Shown piece after piece: positions 419 through 8,843 of a stretch of 64,000 bases of DNA (within the stretch, counting starts at the first letter, position 1; each line of letters opens with the position of its first letter). The stretch covers positions 62,001 through 126,000 of the forward strand of contig NZ_QKVK01000007.1 in assembly GCF_003234965.1 (NCBI RefSeq), read 5' to 3'. The DNA comes from Aestuariivirga litoralis (GTDB taxonomy: Bacteria; Pseudomonadota; Alphaproteobacteria; Rhizobiales; Aestuariivirgaceae). The notes below the pieces were generated by a model. It saw only the letters and a program-made list of their open reading frames with translations. It had not been told where the DNA came from and ran no database searches. The position numbers were made by a program, and so were the translations under genes.

Positions 419-1411
419 CTAGGGCCTGCTCCCCCCAGAACGCACCCTCGGGGCGAGCCGCGGCCACAGCAGGACGAGCCCAGTGATGACTGCCGCACCC
501 CCCAGCAGGTCGACACCATAATGGGCGCCATGGACGGGGGTGGCGGCCAGGATGGCGAGCCCCACGGTGCTGCCCGCCAGGAAGCCCGACCAGTGGCCGC
601 GGCTGCACCAGGCGATGATCAGCGCAAGGCAGGTGTGGAAGGATGGGAAGGTGGCGATCCCCTCCATGGTGCCAAGATCGAGGCTGACCGGGCCATCGCC
701 GCGCAGCGCCTTCACCTGCTCCAGCCAGACCTCCGGAAGGTGCCCCAGCCCGGCCAGGACGTCCGGCGATGCCACGCTGCTCCAGGCCGAAACCGCCGGC
801 AGCAGACCGGCCACCGCGACGCAGATGAAGCCGGAGGCAAGCGCCAGGAAGGCCACTTCGTCCACCCGGTCATGGCGGCCACGCCACACAGCGATGATGA
901 GGATCATGGCCAGTGCCGGGCCGATTGCCAGGCTGTAGGCGATCAACAGGCCCCGCCGGCTCCACGGGTGGGCGGTGACCAGCCGCGCATAGCCGTTCCA
1001 GTCGAACCCGAGGGCGCTGTCCCAGGCGGCAAGATGCCGGTCCGCCCAGGGAAGCCCGAGGGTCATCATCAGGTGGCTGAAGAGATTGATCTGCTGGGTC
1101 AGGAAACCGGCGAAGAAAGCCAGCATCAGCAGGCGGAACAGGGTATCAAAACCCCTTCCGTGGCATGGTCCCCGCCACTGCCGATAGGCCAGCGCCACCG
1201 CTGTGCCCAAGAACACAAAGCTCATCTTTTGAATGCTTTGGGAGGTGAAGCTCAGACGCGAGTCGCGCGCGACCCAGGCCATATTGAGAATCCAGAGCCC
1301 GGCCAGCGCCAGCCAGAATCCGGGATGGGGATAGAGCCATGACAGGGCCCCTCTGAGAAACCGTGCCCCCTCGCTTGCCTCCGACCGAGGAGCCCTTGTG
1401 TCGCTGACCAT
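419..1411 (-). CDS. PAP2-superfamily membrane phosphatase/phosphotransferase
   Basis: A 330-residue polytopic membrane protein with about six hydrophobic segments. Near the C-terminus it carries two of the three PAP2 phosphatase motifs: PSFH at about residue 256 and HGAHYGVDLLGG at about residue 294, whose histidines are the expected catalytic nucleophile and general acid/base. The layout resembles the inositol-phosphorylceramide-synthase-like branch (PAP2_3) rather than short PgpB-type phosphatases. The first motif is not clear by eye. The substrate is probably a lipid phosphate or an isoprenoid diphosphate, but this is inference from the family. It is monocistronic between terC and ilvC, with about 135 nt upstream available for its own promoter. 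Confidence 0.75.
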   Translation of the reverse strand: MVSDTRAPRSEASEGARFLRGALSWLYPHPGFWLALAGLWILNMAWVARDSRLSFTSQSIQKMSFVFLGTAVALAYRQWRGPCHGRGFDTLFRLLMLAFFAGFLTQQINLFSHLMMTLGLPWADRHLAAWDSALGFDWNGYARLVTAHPWSRRGLLIAYSLAIGPALAMILIIAVWRGRHDRVDEVAFLALASGFICVAVAGLLPAVSAWSSVASPDVLAGLGHLPEVWLEQVKALRGDGPVSLDLGTMEGIATFPSFHTCLALIIAWCSRGHWSGFLAGSTVGLAILAATPVHGAHYGVDLLGGAAVITGLVLLWPRLAPRVRSGGSRP

Positions 1412-1548
1412 GCTTCGCCATTACACTGTGCCTAACAATCATAGACTGAATTCACTGCCGTTTGTAACGCGGATTGCGTTCGCAGCACGCGATGGCAAGG
1501 GCAATCCGCCGGGGGACTGCACTGCGGGTGTGAGGCTTTGGCCCGTCG

Positions 1549-2544
1549 TCAGCCCAGCCGTTCCGGGGCCTGGCCCTGGGTCTTCCACAGGCTGTAGAGC
1601 ACGCCGGCCGCCAGGATGCCGAAGGTGACCGAGAGGGAGACCGCCGGGGGCACCTTGTCCAGCCCCAGGAGCGGGGCGGCGAAGATCTTGGAGCCGATGA
1701 AGATCAGAACGACGGCCAGCGCCAGCTTCAGGTAGTGGAACCGCTTCACCATGGCGGCCAGCGCGAAGTAGAGGGCACGGAGACCGAGGATCGCGAAGAT
1801 GTTCGAGGTATAGACGATGAAGGGGTCGGTGGTGATGGCGAAGATCGCCGGCACGCTGTCGACCGCGAAGATCACGTCCGCCACCTCGATCAGGACCAGC
1901 GCCAGGAACAGCGGCGTCATGAACCAGGCAAGCCTGCCGGTCTTCGGGTCCTCCTTGCGGACGAAGAACCTCTCGCCATGGTGCTCGTCCGTCACGTTGA
2001 AGCGGCGGCGCATGAAGGCGAGGAGCGGGCTCGTCGCCACGTCGTAGTCCTTGTCGGCGAAGAGGATCATCTTGATGCCGGTGCCGATCAGGAACACCGC
2101 GAAGACATAGAGCACCCAGGAGAACTCGGAGACGATGGCCGCGCCGAAGCCGATCATGATGGCCCTGAGCACGATGACGCCGAGGATGCCCCAGAACAGC
2201 ACCCGGTGCTGGTACTTCAGCGGCACCGCGAAGAAACCGAAGATCATGGCGATGACGAAGACATTGTCCATCGCCAGCGCCTTCTCGACGGCGAAGCCCG
2301 TGAGGTATTCCATGCCGGAGTTGGCGCCCAGCGACCACCACACCCAGCCGCCGAAGGCAAGCCCGAGGCCGATATAGGCGGCGGAGAGGACGAGGCTCTC
2401 GCGCGCCGTGATCTCGCGGTGCTCCTTGTGCAGCACGCCCAGGTCCAGCACCAGCAGCACCGCCACGATGGCAATGAACATGAGCCACATCCAGACCGGC
2501 TTCGTCAGCCAGTCGGCGAACAGGACTGTCGTGAGAATATCCAT
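1549..2544 (-). CDS. TerC-family integral membrane protein
   Basis: A 331-residue membrane protein of the TerC/Alx family, probably a metal-ion (manganese) exporter of the inner membrane. It has about nine hydrophobic helices. The acidic motif AMDNVFVIAM near residue 70 and its counterpart EVADVIFAVDSVPAIFA near residue 200 are the paired family signatures that supply metal-binding aspartates. Length is typical. The chosen ATG has GAAGAAGGGGA about 5 nt upstream; another in-frame ATG at 2580 would add 12 residues (MSDDSDTEEGDP) but has no ribosome-binding site and follows a hairpin directly. The leader between this gene and the LysE gene is structured. Confidence 0.88.
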   Translation of the reverse strand: MDILTTVLFADWLTKPVWMWLMFIAIVAVLLVLDLGVLHKEHREITARESLVLSAAYIGLGLAFGGWVWWSLGANSGMEYLTGFAVEKALAMDNVFVIAMIFGFFAVPLKYQHRVLFWGILGVIVLRAIMIGFGAAIVSEFSWVLYVFAVFLIGTGIKMILFADKDYDVATSPLLAFMRRRFNVTDEHHGERFFVRKEDPKTGRLAWFMTPLFLALVLIEVADVIFAVDSVPAIFAITTDPFIVYTSNIFAILGLRALYFALAAMVKRFHYLKLALAVVLIFIGSKIFAAPLLGLDKVPPAVSLSVTFGILAAGVLYSLWKTQGQAPERLG

Positions 2545-2640
2545 CGGGTCCCCTTCTTCAGTGTCGCTGTCGTCCGACATCGCGCCGAGAACGGCGCCAG
2601 AGGGGCCCGGACACCGTTGGATCTGGTGAAACCCCTCCGC
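2545..2640 (-). promoter_or_regulatory. Structured 5' leader of terC (candidate cis-regulatory RNA)
   Basis: Read on the minus strand, GAGGGG (2637-2632) pairs with CCCCTC (2605-2600) and encloses an inner CACC/GGTG stem. A perfect GCGCCG-TTCT-CGGCGC hairpin (2597-2582) follows, immediately before an upstream in-frame ATG and the terC ribosome-binding site. terC genes elsewhere are often controlled by the Mn-sensing yybP-ykoY riboswitch, but its conserved GGGGAGTA element is not found here, so this would be another structure or chance folding in GC-rich DNA. Confidence 0.3.
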
Positions 2641-2681
2641 AATTTCAACGGGCGGCGGGATTACAGTTTGGAAAGGTGGGG

Positions 2682-3311
2682 CTAGAGCGCGTCGCGCGCC
2701 GACCAGAGGAGCCTCAGGCCGAGGGCACCGAGGAACAGGCCGGTGACCCGGTCGATCCAGACCTTGGCCCTGAGGTAGAAGGCCCGCACCGGGCCGGAGC
2801 CGAAGAACAGCGAGACGGCAGAATACCACCAGACCTCGTTGAAGCTGACGATGAAGATCAGCGCCACCGTCATCCACAGCGGCACCTCGGCCGGCAGCAT
2901 GGCGATGAAGATCGAGCCGAAGAACACGGCGACCTTGGGATTGGCGATCTGGGTGAGGAAGCCCTTGACGAAGGGGTTGCCCACGGCGCCGGCCTCGACG
3001 TCGATCTTCAGCGGCTCCGCCGCGTGGCGGAAGATCATGTAGGCGATGTAGAGCAGGAACAGCGCGCCCGCCACCTTCATGCCCATGAACAGGACGGGCA
3101 CGGCGTGGAACACCGCGTTGAGTCCGAGGAGCGCGGCGGACGACCAGATCACAGTCCCCGCCCCCAGCCCCAGCGCCACCTTGATGCCGTCGAGCCGCGA
3201 CTGGGCGACCGCCGTGCGCGCCGTGATGAGGAAGGACGGGCCCGGCGAGATCACCGCGAGAAGCTGGATCAGGCCGATCGAGAGCAGCGTGAGAAGACTA
3301 GAGGTCGCCAA
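2682..3311 (-). CDS. LysE/RhtB-family amino-acid exporter
   Basis: A 209-residue, six-helix membrane protein. The N-terminal motif [18 protein letters not shown] is the LysE-family signature, containing the SPGP turn, and [18 protein letters not shown] is the conserved central NPK segment. Family members export amino acids or related metabolites out of the cytoplasm; the substrate cannot be assigned. The start overlaps the last 14 nt of pdxJ, so the two are probably co-transcribed and translationally coupled. Length is normal for the family. Confidence 0.88.
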
Positions 3312-4038
3312 TGGCCGTCCTAAATTTCCTGACCGTTTCGCCGAGCCCGAACATCAGGGCGTCGGCGGTGATCGCGTGACCGATGGAGACTTCCTGCAGG
3401 TTCGGCAGCGCCTTGACAAGGGCCGGCAGGTTCTCCCGCGTCAGGTCATGCCCGGCATTGAGGCCGAGGCCCGCGGCCTCCGCGGCCTTGCCGGTGGCCA
3501 CCACCCTGTCGAACTCGCGCGCCCGCGCGGCGGGCTCGAAGGCGCCGCCATAGGGGCCGGTATAGATCTCGACGCGGTCCGCCCCCACGGCCTTGGCCAG
3601 TGCCGGGACCGCAGGGTCGGGGTCGATGAAGAGCGCAACGCGGGCGCCGCTCTTGTGCAGACGGGCGATGACGGCGGTGAGCCGGTCGCGGTTGGCGGCA
3701 ATGTCCCAGCCATGGTCGGACGTGGACTGGGTGGGATCGTCCGGGACGAGCGTCACCTGCTCCGGCCTTTCGGCCTCGCAGAGTGTGAGGAAGCGCTCGT
3801 CGGGATAGCCCTCGATGTTGAATTCAGCGCCCGGATATTCGGCCCTGAGGAGTTTGCTGATGTCGGTGACGTCGGTGCGGCGGATGTGGCGCTCGTCGGG
3901 GCGCGGATGGACGGTGATGCCGACCGCGCCATTGTCCAGCGCCACGTGGCAGAGATCGGTGAGCGACGGCCACGGCACGTGGCGCCGGTTCCGCAGATAG
4001 GCGATGGCATTGACGTTGACGGACAGCTTGCACGGCAC
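3298..4038 (-). CDS. pdxJ: Pyridoxine 5'-phosphate synthase
   Basis: 246 residues, normal for PdxJ. It condenses 3-amino-2-oxopropyl phosphate with deoxyxylulose 5-phosphate to give pyridoxine 5'-phosphate in vitamin B6 synthesis, in the cytoplasm. Family motifs seen are [15 protein letters not shown] at the N-terminus, [13 protein letters not shown] near residue 40 with substrate-binding His and Arg, [18 protein letters not shown] and [10 protein letters not shown]. It is the first gene of a likely pair with the LysE exporter, whose start lies inside its 3' end. Confidence 0.95.
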
Positions 4039-5740: not shown

Positions 5741-6301
5741 TCAGACCTTCATGCCCTCCGCGCCGCGGGTGATGCCGGCGACGCCGGTGCGGGCGACCTC
5801 GACGAGGCCGAGGGGGACCATGAGCGAGATGAACTGCTCGACCTTGTCGGTCTTGCCAGTGATCTCGAAGATGAAGCTCTGGGTGCCGGCGTCGATGACG
5901 CGGGCGCGGAAGGCGTCCGCCAGGCGCAGCGCCTCGACGCGCTTCTCGCCGGTGCCCGACACCTTGACCATGGCGAGCTCGCGGGTGAGTGCGTTCCCTT
6001 GCACGGTCAGATCCGCCACCGAATGCACCGGCACCATGCGGCCGAGCTGGTTCTTGATCTGCTCGATCACCACGGGCGTGCCGCTGGTGACGATGGTGAT
6101 GCGCGAGACGTGCTTCTCGTGCTGGGTCTCGGAGACGGTGAGCGACTCGATGTTGTAGCCGCGCCCCGAGAACAGGCCGATGACGCGGGCCAGCACACCC
6201 GGCTCGTTGTCGACGATGACGGCGAGCGTGTGGGTTTCGACCAGCGGCTTCACGCTGTCGAGGAAATAGGCCGAGCCCGAGGGCTGAAGATGTGCGTTCA
6301 T
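5741..6301 (-). CDS. ilvN: Acetolactate synthase small (regulatory) subunit
   Basis: 186 residues. It contains an N-terminal ACT domain (ETHTLAVIVDNEPGVLARVIGLFSGRGYNIESL, residues about 23-55), where valine binds for feedback inhibition, and a C-terminal ACT-like domain. It activates and regulates the catalytic subunit encoded just upstream (17-nt gap), so the two form an ilvBN operon. An N-terminal extension of about 20 residues is usual in alphaproteobacterial IlvH/IlvN proteins. A strong intrinsic terminator follows about 30 nt after the stop. Confidence 0.95.
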   Translation of the reverse strand: MNAHLQPSGSAYFLDSVKPLVETHTLAVIVDNEPGVLARVIGLFSGRGYNIESLTVSETQHEKHVSRITIVTSGTPVVIEQIKNQLGRMVPVHSVADLTVQGNALTRELAMVKVSGTGEKRVEALRLADAFRARVIDAGTQSFIFEITGKTDKVEQFISLMVPLGLVEVARTGVAGITRGAEGMKV

Positions 6302-6318: not shown

Positions 6319-8088
6319 TTAGACCAGCATCTTGCCCTTGGCGTCGATCACCGAGCCGACGTCCTCGTCGGCCACGTCCTCGCCCAGGATCATCTCGTTA
6401 TGCGCCTTGCCCGAGGGGATCATCGGGAAGCAGTTGGCGAGGTTGGCGACACGGCAGTCGAAGATCACCGGACGCTTGACCTTGATCATCTCCCGGATCG
6501 CATCGTCGAGCTCGCCGGGCTTGGTCGCCCGCATGCCCACACAGCCATAGGCCTCCGCCAGCTTGACGAAGTCAGGCAGCGCCTCGGTGTAGGAATGCGA
6601 CAGGCGGTTGCCGTGCAGCAGCTGCTGCCACTGGCGCACCATGCCCATGTACTGGTTGTTGAGGATGAAGATCTTGATCGGCAGCTCATACTGGATCGCG
6701 GTCGACATTTCCTGCATGGTCATCAGCACCGAGGCATCGCCCGCGATGTCGATCACCAGCGCATCCGGGTGCGCCTGCTGCACGCCCACGGCGGCGGGGA
6801 GGCCATAGCCCATGGTGCCGAGGCCGCCCGACGTCATCCAGCGGTTCGGCTCCTCGAAGCGGTAGAACTGGGCGGCCCACATCTGGTGCTGGCCCACTTC
6901 GGTGGTGATGTAGGCGTTCTTGTCCTTGGTGAGCTCATAGAGCCGCTCGACCGCATATTGCGGCATGATGACGTCGGCGTTCTTGCGGTACTTGAGGCAG
7001 TCCTTGGCGCGCCAGCCGTCGATCTGCTTCCACCAGGTGTCGAGCGCCTTCTTGTCCAGCGTCACGGACTTCGCCTTCCACACGCGGATCATGTCCTCCA
7101 GCGCGTGGGCGACGTCGGCGACGATCGGCACGTCGACGCGCACCGTCTTGTTGATCGAGGACGGGTCGATGTCGATGTGGATCTTCTTCGAGTTGGGCGA
7201 GAAGGCGTTGAGACGCCCGGTGATGCGGTCATCGAAGCGGGCGCCGACGCAGATCATCACGTCGCAGTCATGCATGGCCATGTTGGCCTCGTACATGCCG
7301 TGCATGCCGAGCATGCCGAGCCAGTTCTTGCCGCTCGCCGGATAGGCGCCCAGCCCCATCAGCGTCGAGGTGATGGGGATGTTGGTCATCTCGACGAAGT
7401 CGCGCAGCAGCTTCGAGGCCGTGGGGCCTGAGTTGATGACGCCGCCGCCCGTATAGAGGATCGGGCGCTTCGCCGTGGCGATGAGTTCGACCGCGGCGCG
7501 GATGGCGTTCTGGTCGGCCTTCACCTGCGGGCGATAGGTCTTGTGCTCGATGTTCTTGGGGCCGACGTAGCGGCCCTTGGCGAACTGCACGTCCTTCGGG
7601 ATGTCGACGACGACCGGGCCGGGGCGGCCATGGGTGGCGACATAGAAGGCCTCGTGCAGGATGCGTGCGAGGTCGTTCACGTCCTTCACGAGATAATTGT
7701 GCTTGGTGCAGGGACGCGTGATGCCGACCGTGTCGCATTCCTGGAAGGCGTCAGAGCCGATCAGGTGCGTGGGCACCTGGCCGGTGATGCAGACCATGGG
7801 GATCGAGTCGAGCAGCGCATCGGTGAGGCCCGTCACCGCATTGGTGGCGCCGGGGCCGGAGGTGACGAGCACGACGCCGCACTTCCCCGTCGAGCGGGCA
7901 TAGCCTTCCGCGGCGTGGGTTGCCCCCTGCTCGTGGCGGACGAGGATGTGCTCCACCTTCTCCTGCTGGAAGATCTCGTCGTAGATCGGGAGCACGGCAC
8001 CGCCCGGATAGCCGAACACGGTGTCGACCCCCTGGTCCTGCAGCGCCTTCAGCACCATCTCGGCGCCGGTCATCTCGTTGGTGGCCAT
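6319..8088 (-). CDS. ilvB: Acetolactate synthase large (catalytic) subunit
   Basis: 589 residues, full length. A thiamine-diphosphate enzyme that joins two pyruvates, or pyruvate and 2-oxobutyrate, in the first committed step to valine, leucine and isoleucine. Seen: the N-terminal TPP domain with VRHEQGATHAAEGYAR (catalytic Glu), a central FAD/DHAP-like domain, and a C-terminal TPP domain with GDASVLMTMQEM and ILNNQYMGMVRQW binding Mg-TPP. The ATG at 8088 is chosen because AGAGG lies 8 nt upstream; a GTG at 8097 is too close to that site. Its 5' leader carries a branched-chain leader peptide and an attenuator. Confidence 0.96.
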   Translation of the reverse strand: MATNEMTGAEMVLKALQDQGVDTVFGYPGGAVLPIYDEIFQQEKVEHILVRHEQGATHAAEGYARSTGKCGVVLVTSGPGATNAVTGLTDALLDSIPMVCITGQVPTHLIGSDAFQECDTVGITRPCTKHNYLVKDVNDLARILHEAFYVATHGRPGPVVVDIPKDVQFAKGRYVGPKNIEHKTYRPQVKADQNAIRAAVELIATAKRPILYTGGGVINSGPTASKLLRDFVEMTNIPITSTLMGLGAYPASGKNWLGMLGMHGMYEANMAMHDCDVMICVGARFDDRITGRLNAFSPNSKKIHIDIDPSSINKTVRVDVPIVADVAHALEDMIRVWKAKSVTLDKKALDTWWKQIDGWRAKDCLKYRKNADVIMPQYAVERLYELTKDKNAYITTEVGQHQMWAAQFYRFEEPNRWMTSGGLGTMGYGLPAAVGVQQAHPDALVIDIAGDASVLMTMQEMSTAIQYELPIKIFILNNQYMGMVRQWQQLLHGNRLSHSYTEALPDFVKLAEAYGCVGMRATKPGELDDAIREMIKVKRPVIFDCRVANLANCFPMIPSGKAHNEMILGEDVADEDVGSVIDAKGKMLV

Positions 8089-8147
8089 CTCACTCACCTC
8101 TTCAGAAATTGCGTTTCGTCAAACACGTGATTTGTCATTCAGGCAAT

Positions 8148-8170
8148 AAAAAAGGCCCCCAAGGGAGCCT
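8148..8170 (-). terminator. Attenuator terminator in the ilvB leader
   Basis: Minus strand: AGGCTCC-CTTG-GGGGCCT, a 7-bp stem with one G-T wobble, followed by a run of six T. It lies about 35 nt after the leader-peptide stop codon and 60 nt before the ilvB start. An upstream segment GGTGCTG can pair imperfectly with the 5' arm of this hairpin, and the same segment also belongs to the 9-bp pause stem. Exclusive folds are therefore possible. Confidence 0.85.
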
Positions 8171-8203
8171 GATTTCCGCGCAGCACCACCAGTTCCTGGA
8201 AGC

Positions 8204-8251
8204 TTAAGCTTCCCCGGCGCTGCGCGGACCTACTACGAGAATGGTGTTCAT
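8204..8251 (-). CDS. ilv leader peptide (15 residues, branched-chain-rich)
   Basis: ATG AAC ACC ATT CTC GTA GTA GGT ... TAA encodes MNTILVVGPRSAGEA. Four consecutive codons are Ile, Leu, Val, Val, the end products of the pathway. This is the expected layout of a ribosome-stalling leader in front of an acetolactate synthase operon. Sequence within and after the frame pairs as CCGCGCAGC (8227-8219) with GCTGCGCGG (8184-8176), a 9-bp pause stem, followed by the terminator. No ribosome-binding site precedes the ATG, and a promoter lies so close that the transcript may begin at or near the A of the ATG. Confidence 0.82.
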   Translation of the reverse strand: MNTILVVGPRSAGEA

Positions 8252-8259
8252 GGCGGGCG

Positions 8260-8288
8260 GTTCTACGCGGGCGGGAGGGGCACGTCAA
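8260..8288 (-). promoter_or_regulatory. Predicted sigma-70 promoter of ilvBN
   Basis: On the minus strand TTGACG (8288-8283) and TAGAAC (8265-8260) are separated by exactly 17 nt. Only 8 nt lie between the -10 box and the leader-peptide ATG, which would place the start of transcription at or within a few bases of that ATG. Confidence 0.6.
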
Positions 8289-8312: not shown

Positions 8313-8843
8313 TCAATAGTCGCGCTTGGCGATGAAGCGCACCGGGCCATAGGGCCCGGTGGCGGGGCGATAGACGCAGTTGAGGCGGCTGATCTCGGAG
8401 ACGCCGCCGCCGCCCGGCACCGGCATGCGGACCTGGGCCGGGATCAGCGCGGCCTCGCCCGGTGCCGCGCCATAGAGGTCGATGGTGCAGGAGATGCGGT
8501 CGCGGCTCCAGTCGGTGTTGCGGTTGCAGCGGCCGCGGTTCATGCGGATGTCGACCTGGTTGCCGTTGCGCTGCCAGTCGAGATCGCCGCCGCAGGACAG
8601 CTTGCCGCCATCGACCTGGTAGCCGCCGTCCGAGCCGCGGTTGAGGCAGAAGGACAGGCGATACTGGCCATAGAGCGGCTGCTTGGCGCGCCAGCAGCCC
8701 TTGACGCCGCCGCCGGGGCCGGGAACCGGCATGCGCATGTCAGGGTCCATTTCCGGCGCCGGCTGCGGCATGCGGACCTGCGCCGCTGCCGGAATGCTCA
8801 AGGCCACTGAAGCGGCGACCAGCGCCATCACGAGGTGTTTCAT
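8313..8843 (-). CDS. Secreted six-cysteine protein of unknown function
   Basis: 176 residues with a clear signal peptide (MKHLVMALVAASVALSIPAAA, cleavage near residue 21). The mature part has six cysteines at about 50, 66, 84, 106, 119 and 146, enough for three disulfides. A short sequence RMPVPG followed by a glycine run occurs twice, near residues 37 and 139, framing the cysteine-rich middle. I recognise no family. It is likely periplasmic or outer-surface. It lies next to the ilvB promoter on the same strand and reads towards it; no operon partner is evident. Confidence 0.7.
   Translation of the reverse strand: MKHLVMALVAASVALSIPAAAQVRMPQPAPEMDPDMRMPVPGPGGGVKGCWRAKQPLYGQYRLSFCLNRGSDGGYQVDGGKLSCGGDLDWQRNGNQVDIRMNRGRCNRNTDWSRDRISCTIDLYGAAPGEAALIPAQVRMPVPGGGGVSEISRLNCVYRPATGPYGPVRFIAKRDY

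Follow-up and report, generated by a model that had tools for sequence, protein, structure and literature searches.

A predicted ribosome-mediated attenuator of ilvBN with a probably leaderless leader peptide, and its relatives in RF02502 loci of the Rhizobiales

We propose, with considerable confidence, that the ilvBN genes of Aestuariivirga litoralis are governed by a ribosome-mediated transcription attenuator whose leader peptide would be translated from a leaderless transcript. The candidate lies within a stretch of 64,000 nucleotides (hereafter the window), and its elements, their spacing, their conservation, the linkage to ilvB and the bias towards rare codons are all read from DNA sequence. 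From these we infer the start site, the stalling and the read-through, which would work as follows. RNA polymerase would start at or beside the A of the ATG at 8251, and a ribosome would load on the 5'-terminal AUG and translate MNTILVVGPRSAGEA. As long as the Ile, Leu and Val tRNAs are charged, the ribosome would move on or the pause helix would form, and the terminator (8170-8148) would end transcription, giving a terminated RNA of ca. 104 nt. Under a shortage of branched-chain tRNAs the ribosome would wait at the late control codons, above all at the two rare GTA Val codons, which end 2-3 nt before the first arm of the pause helix, so that a stalled ribosome would open this helix; the freed strand would then hinder the terminator and ilvBN would be transcribed.

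The features are collected in Table 1. Upstream of ilvB on the minus strand (8288-8148), TTGACG-N17-TAGAAC is followed after 8 nt by the ATG of a uORF and then by the pause helix, the stop-codon hairpin and the terminator; the promoter, the 8 nt, the 15-codon frame and the six T of the original prediction all read as claimed, letters and coordinates alike. The perfect palindrome GGAAGCTTAAGCTTCC (8213-8198) is likewise present, as a 6-bp hairpin whose loop contains the stop codon. The pause stem, put forward as 9 bp (CCGCGCAGC/GCTGCGCGG), is there as well, but only as part of a longer helix of 13-14 bp. A generic sigma-70 scan of the window called no promoter here, as TAGAAC is without the required T at position 6, and the assignment is made because the TTGAC spacing is conserved in relatives. 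The terminator scan detected one terminator, at 8170-8153 (0.4 expected). The end of the terminator is 59 nt from the ilvB ATG (8088), which has an SD-like GAAGAGG 8 nt upstream; a GTG at 8097 is an alternative start.

Table 1. Features of the predicted attenuator in the window, and RF02502 copies found before MFS transporter genes at other loci (positions of the latter are those of their own loci)
Feature	Position	Strand	Remarks
-35 element TTGACG	8288-8283	(-)	37 nt before leader ATG; sequence and genus spacing
-10 element TAGAAC	8265-8260	(-)	ends 8 nt before leader ATG; missed by generic scan
leader ORF MNTILVVGPRSAGEA*, 15 codons	8251-8204	(-)	TAA at 8206-8204; probably leaderless
control codons ATT CTC GTA GTA (ILVV)	8242-8231	(-)	inside leader ORF
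pause helix arm 1	8227-8215	(-)	leader codons 9-13; 8228 also paired in MFE
stop-codon hairpin GGAAGC-TTAA-GCTTCC	8213-8198	(-)	6 bp; different matching arms across genus
pause helix arm 2	8188-8176	(-)	genus consensus and MFE
intrinsic terminator hairpin AGGCTCCCTTGGGGGCCT	8170-8153	(-)	terminator scan; pairs kept, nearly invariant, in genus alignment
terminator six-T tract	8153-8148	(-)	sequence; terminator scan
RF02502 Atu_C8 full match	8258-8138	(-)	64.6 bits, E 2.1e-12
ilvB, acetolactate synthase large subunit	6319-8088	(-)	NCBIfam; regulated gene (predicted), ATG 8088
ilvN, acetolactate synthase small subunit	5741-6301	(-)	NCBIfam
copy at L003	RF02502 1501-1620; MFS ORF 1655-2869		near type; TIGR00710 over cut-off
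copy at L041	RF02502 1501-1621; MFS ORF 1567-2844		near type; TIGR00710 over cut-off
copy at L042	RF02502 1501-1621		near type; before MFS gene, protein not among four scanned
copy at L140	RF02502 2403-2522; MFS ORF 2364-3833		near type; TIGR00710 below cut-off
copy at L141	RF02502 2508-2628; MFS ORF 1183-2451		near type; TIGR00710 below cut-off

The window element matches the RNA family RF02502 (Atu_C8) at 64.6 bits, against a gathering cut-off of 50, over model positions 1-122 of 122, and with this full-length match it shares the pause helix and the terminator of the family structure. Wilms (2012) is said to be the source of Atu_C8. Within the genus of the window, matches are present in 34/37 genomes and exceed the cut-off in 33, and this recurrence together with the E-value (2.1e-12) is why we do not take the attenuator for a chance find. 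Matches at E <= 0.01 occur in 178 of the 297 genomes of a sample of the order (49 over the cut-off) but in only 22 of 385 in a sample of the class (2 over the cut-off, one being the window's own), and in family f196 there are matches at E <= 1e-4 in 145/151 genomes. A second match in the same genome as the window (C25, 18.3 bits, E 1.2) was taken as chance.

The loci analysed were 142 matches with downstream DNA, namely 141 among the order-sample matches listed plus one from the class sample (G107); listed matches outside this set are at least G488, G423, G388, G643, G653, G465, G672 and G584, besides weaker unlisted ones. The family of the window contributes 10 loci to the set, with one genome that has a weak match (G406) outside it and another (G515) without a match. 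The N-terminus of IlvB lies 14-211 nt downstream of the match in 137 of the 142 loci and an MFS transporter gene takes its place in the other 5. Near the match start, 141/142 loci have a uORF of 7-40 codons in which three Ile/Leu/Val codons follow one another, compared with 16, 13, 10, 15 and 9 of 142 in five rounds of dinucleotide shuffling; the sole locus without one by this criterion is L189. The codon conservation among relatives on which the original prediction was staked is present.

How the leader is started divides these loci into two groups. Disregarding any TTGAC closer than 30 nt, we found the nearest one upstream 35-39 nt before the start codon in 41 loci (near) and 53-71 nt before it in 74 (far), the choice of start codons in this count having favoured an ATG that has TTGAC 34-40 nt before it, and 26/141 loci have no TTGAC in either range (none or more distant). 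SD-like words of at least 4 nt precede 4/41 near but 53/74 far leaders (p 7e-11; others 12/26), and GTG starts are found in 0/41 near and 16/74 far leaders (p 5e-4; others 4/26). At two loci (L236, L142) the start codon was reset by hand to the family pattern; beforehand there were 42 near and 72 far loci and 7 changes on the tree described below. Three start rules blind to the promoter, each with and without TTG, gave 34-40 near and 68-74 far loci, SD-like words in 4 of the 34-40 near and 50-53 of the 68-74 far, and no near GTG start, although under one rule with TTG allowed two near loci take TTG starts. These rules place 0-5 loci at 41-49 nt, so the gap between the classes is not absolute.

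The family of the window is near in 10/10 examined loci (9/10 under one promoter-blind rule); in its genus TTGAC stands 35-37 nt upstream in 29/30 loci and in 4/4 further ones (L280-L283), and none of four 5-nt SD words tested is present in the 30 genus leaders. A second sample, of 80 named contigs retrieved by IlvB, agreed: the promoter-blind choice with a terminator required gave 35 near, 21 far and 3 other loci and 21 without a qualifying uORF, and a preference for near promoters gave 37, 25, 4 and 14, respectively. Near examples among these contigs are Rhizobium, Agrobacterium, Sinorhizobium (locus L086), Mesorhizobium, Ochrobactrum and Aurantimonas, and far ones Bradyrhizobium, Azorhizobium, Ancylobacter, Bosea, Microvirga and Phenylobacterium, a relative of Caulobacter (locus L127). 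On a FastTree phylogeny of 135 IlvB rows, 108 of them labelled, near and far require 6 changes, at least 4 of them forced by well supported branches, with gain and loss indistinguishable.

We therefore believe that near-class transcripts begin at the AUG, because the promoter spacing, the missing ribosome-binding site and the lack of GTG starts all fit, and that the leader peptide of the window is probably leaderless. The absence of a ribosome-binding site before the frame and a spacing that places transcription at the ATG, both part of the original prediction, draw support from the contrast between near and far loci in SD-like words and GTG starts. The same attenuator could nevertheless have a short 5' UTR, if transcription started several nt further upstream and the ribosome were recruited by a weak or non-canonical site: the -10 element of the window is weak, the exact start of transcription can vary by a few nt, and the far class appears to use such a UTR. 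The two-class spacing, the few SD-like words and the absence of near GTG starts argue against it, as do the 8 nt preceding the ATG of the window (CGCCCGCC), which contain no purine run, and we consider a short UTR here unlikely. A search at trpE- and leuA-like loci of the same genome (L284, L285, L288, L289; flanks of 1.5 kb, trpE matches partial) for leaderless uORFs with W-run, L-run or ILV-run frames returned five chance-like frames, none with TTGAC within 60 nt upstream.

Turning to the RNA itself, the segment 8251-8144 folds with an MFE of -46.3 kcal/mol, compared with -35.6 +/- 3.9 in shuffles (z -2.72). RNAalifold recovered the pause helix and the terminator from an alignment of 30 sequences of the genus, in whose consensus the pause helix has 13 pairs (8227-8215 with 8188-8176, G-U included; 14 in the MFE of the window). 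Covariation among the leaders of relatives, which had been suggested as a check, was found: two-sided changes that preserve pairing affect 4/20 pairs of this alignment, all within the pause helix. Of the 141 loci, 134 can form at least 9 pairs of this helix and all 141 at least 5; shuffling of the sequence downstream of the branched-chain run lowers these numbers to 64 and 89. The stop-codon hairpin has a mean stem of 6.6 pairs (4.2 in shuffles; 141 loci) and reaches at least 6 in 28/30 loci of the genus, where its arms take several sequences, among them GGAAGC/GCTTCC, GGAGGG/CCCTCC, GCAGGG/CCCTGC and GGTGGG/CCCACC. On the evidence of these alignments, structure is maintained by selection, and what is visibly kept in RF02502 loci is the pause helix and the terminator. 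Hairpins of at least 5 pairs have the leader stop codon in their loop in 125/141 members, compared with 50/141 when shuffled.

GUA makes up 171 of the 264 Val codons of the branched-chain runs (141 loci), the run ends in Val in 105/141 loci, and the distance from the end of the last branched-chain codon to the base where the pause helix starts to pair is 4 or 5 nt in 86/141. Measured against a background of the 11 ORFs of the window, not of whole genomes, the 30 genus leaders use GTA for 34/67 Val codons versus 2/318 (Fisher p about 1e-27) and ATT for 29/40 Ile codons versus 12/192 (p about 1e-18). When the ribosome was modelled as a mask reaching 12 nt beyond the A site, the pause helix of the window was whole with the ribosome at the first branched-chain codon and opened with it at the last; because of this difference in the model, the rare GTA Val codons are likely the sensors. 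Part of the role of the A-T-rich codons could instead be to keep the 5' end open, and not to sense tRNA. With branched-chain codons, pause helix and terminator recurring across the order, the proposal that a leaderless stalling peptide would control ilvBN has gained support.

Rfam describes RF02502 as a Rhizobiales sRNA gene, and here we read it as an ilvB attenuator with a leaderless uORF. It might be mainly a trans-acting small regulatory RNA, its position before ilvB being incidental. A precedent for action in trans exists in S. meliloti, where the first codon of the trpL RNA is the AUG of an attenuator leader peptide of 14 residues (PMC7298713; PMC10117765). This leader is leaderless, as that of the window probably is, but it belongs to a tryptophan operon, and trans action of both the RNA (rnTrpL; PMC7298713) and the peptide (peTrpL) has been shown there. 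However, the gene downstream is ilvB for 137/142 copies of RF02502 and one type of transporter gene for the remaining 5, and the conserved content consists of codons, pause helix and terminator; a mainly trans-acting role is thus very unlikely in our view, although both roles can coexist.

The five copies before MFS genes (Table 1) deserve separate consideration. The best NCBIfam match of the four MFS proteins scanned was in every case TIGR00710 (Bcr/CflA efflux), 2 of them over the cut-off, and Pfam MFS_1 was matched in 4/4. At L041 and L140 the listed ORF begins inside or before the RNA match and its true start is probably further in; L003 and L042, near in the original choice of starts, have TTGAC at 41-49 nt under one promoter-blind rule. 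Two genomes with an MFS copy (G507, G639) also have a far-type leader before ilvB (in the case of L142, after the hand reset), so that the MFS copies of these two genomes were not simply copied from the present ilvB leader. If these copies do act as attenuators, the expression of an efflux pump would depend on the charging of branched-chain tRNAs or on how fast ribosomes move. Resistance genes with leader-peptide switches are known, and the copies before Bcr/CflA-type efflux genes would also suit a leader whose translation reports a general slowing of ribosomes (antibiotics, cold) more than the supply of branched-chain amino acids. We give this little credit, considering the linkage to ilvB in 137/142 loci and the run of rare branched-chain codons next to the pause helix.

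No dedicated antiterminator helix emerged from our searches. The best duplex between the leader (the 40 nt that follow the stop codon, as far as the terminator) and the 5' arm of the terminator scored -6.39 for own and -6.75 for swapped arms (mean z +0.69, 141 loci) in a swap test that is weak, the arm being nearly invariant; six leader segments against three targets gave no signal above shuffles (mean z -0.28 to +0.53), and the folding of cut transcripts with ribosomes as masks yielded nothing beyond what shuffled spacers gave. The predicted hiding of the terminator arm by a ribosome at the last branched-chain codon was 0.56 versus 0.57 with shuffled spacers (141 loci) and 0.62 versus 0.64 (30 genus loci), and it exceeded that of the stop-codon state by 0.2 in only 23/141 loci. 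In the window it was 0.65 in both states alike, unlike a clean switch, and the plain MFE contained the terminator under all 14 ribosome masks tried. It may be that any freed G+C-rich strand is enough to disturb termination, or that different genera have different antiterminators. If the uORF were there by chance and the terminator constitutive, this would agree with a terminator that forms at full length in every modelled ribosome state and with the missing antiterminator signal, but conserved uORF, spacing, codon bias and covariation leave this idea with next to no credibility.

A broader and distinctly more tentative reading, which we offer as a possibility rather than as our expectation, is that RF02502 is a regulatory cassette. 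It would have switched ca. 4-6 times between leaderless and Shine-Dalgarno starts while codons, pause helix and terminator were kept, its leaderless form would also have been placed before Bcr/CflA-type exporter genes, and the pause helix by itself may decide the outcome, with no dedicated antiterminator.

The window element belongs to a known kind, because an ilv leader without a ribosome-binding site in C. glutamicum, the leaderless trpL and ilv attenuation in Alphaproteobacteria are all on record. According to PMC11857589, the C. glutamicum ilvBNC leader ilvL (MTIIRLVVVTARRLP) is a branched-chain peptide of 15 residues, with the transcription start one nt from the start codon, no ribosome-binding site, and CUU and GUA as control codons; a leader peptide without a ribosome-binding site is also the subject of Morbach (2000). 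The leader of the window resembles it in the 15 codons, the branched-chain run, the missing ribosome-binding site and the GUA control codons; however, C. glutamicum is an Actinobacterium, and the antiterminator hairpin supported there by mutations has no evident counterpart here. Attenuation in the Caulobacter ilvBN leader (PMC4117421, citing Tarleton 1994) and a cis element of S. meliloti ilvIH with predicted attenuation (PMC2573895, citing Vitreschak 2004) are alphaproteobacterial cases like that of the window, and the accessible passages of both contain no mention of a leaderless ilv leader. The Mycobacterium ilvB1NC operon, from another phylum, follows the same plan of a branched-chain uORF and a terminator, with LVVI control codons including one GUA and a Rho-independent terminator, as PMC13236596 describes.

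In the titles and abstract openings of the open-licence literature searched, Atu_C8 was not named as an ilv attenuator and no ilv attenuator was described before an MFS gene. Two points seemed new within this literature, the repeated change between start modes on a single attenuator and its occurrence before transporter genes. The results suggest a function for an Rfam family listed as sRNA, and they offer a natural experiment, one attenuator that recruits its ribosome in two ways within a single bacterial order, making it testable whether a leaderless or a Shine-Dalgarno start couples translation better to the polymerase. The copies before efflux genes would tie amino acid sensing to an exporter.

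Some minor observations can be added. Several genomes carry RF02502 twice, and each of the two has a separate ilvB copy or paralogue downstream (L139, L144, L145, L273-L276), the two ilvB copies being close neighbours in the case of L144 and L145. Rhizobiaceae-like leader peptides (L061, L067, L085 and others) have a near-constant tail, e.g., VGRRMGKAV or VGKRMGRMV, which may be fixed by the pairing of the pause helix and the stop hairpin; a function of the peptide is also possible. Lastly, the gene upstream of the attenuator in the window (8313-8843, minus strand) encodes a protein of 176 residues with, by eye, a signal-peptide-like start and no Pfam match.
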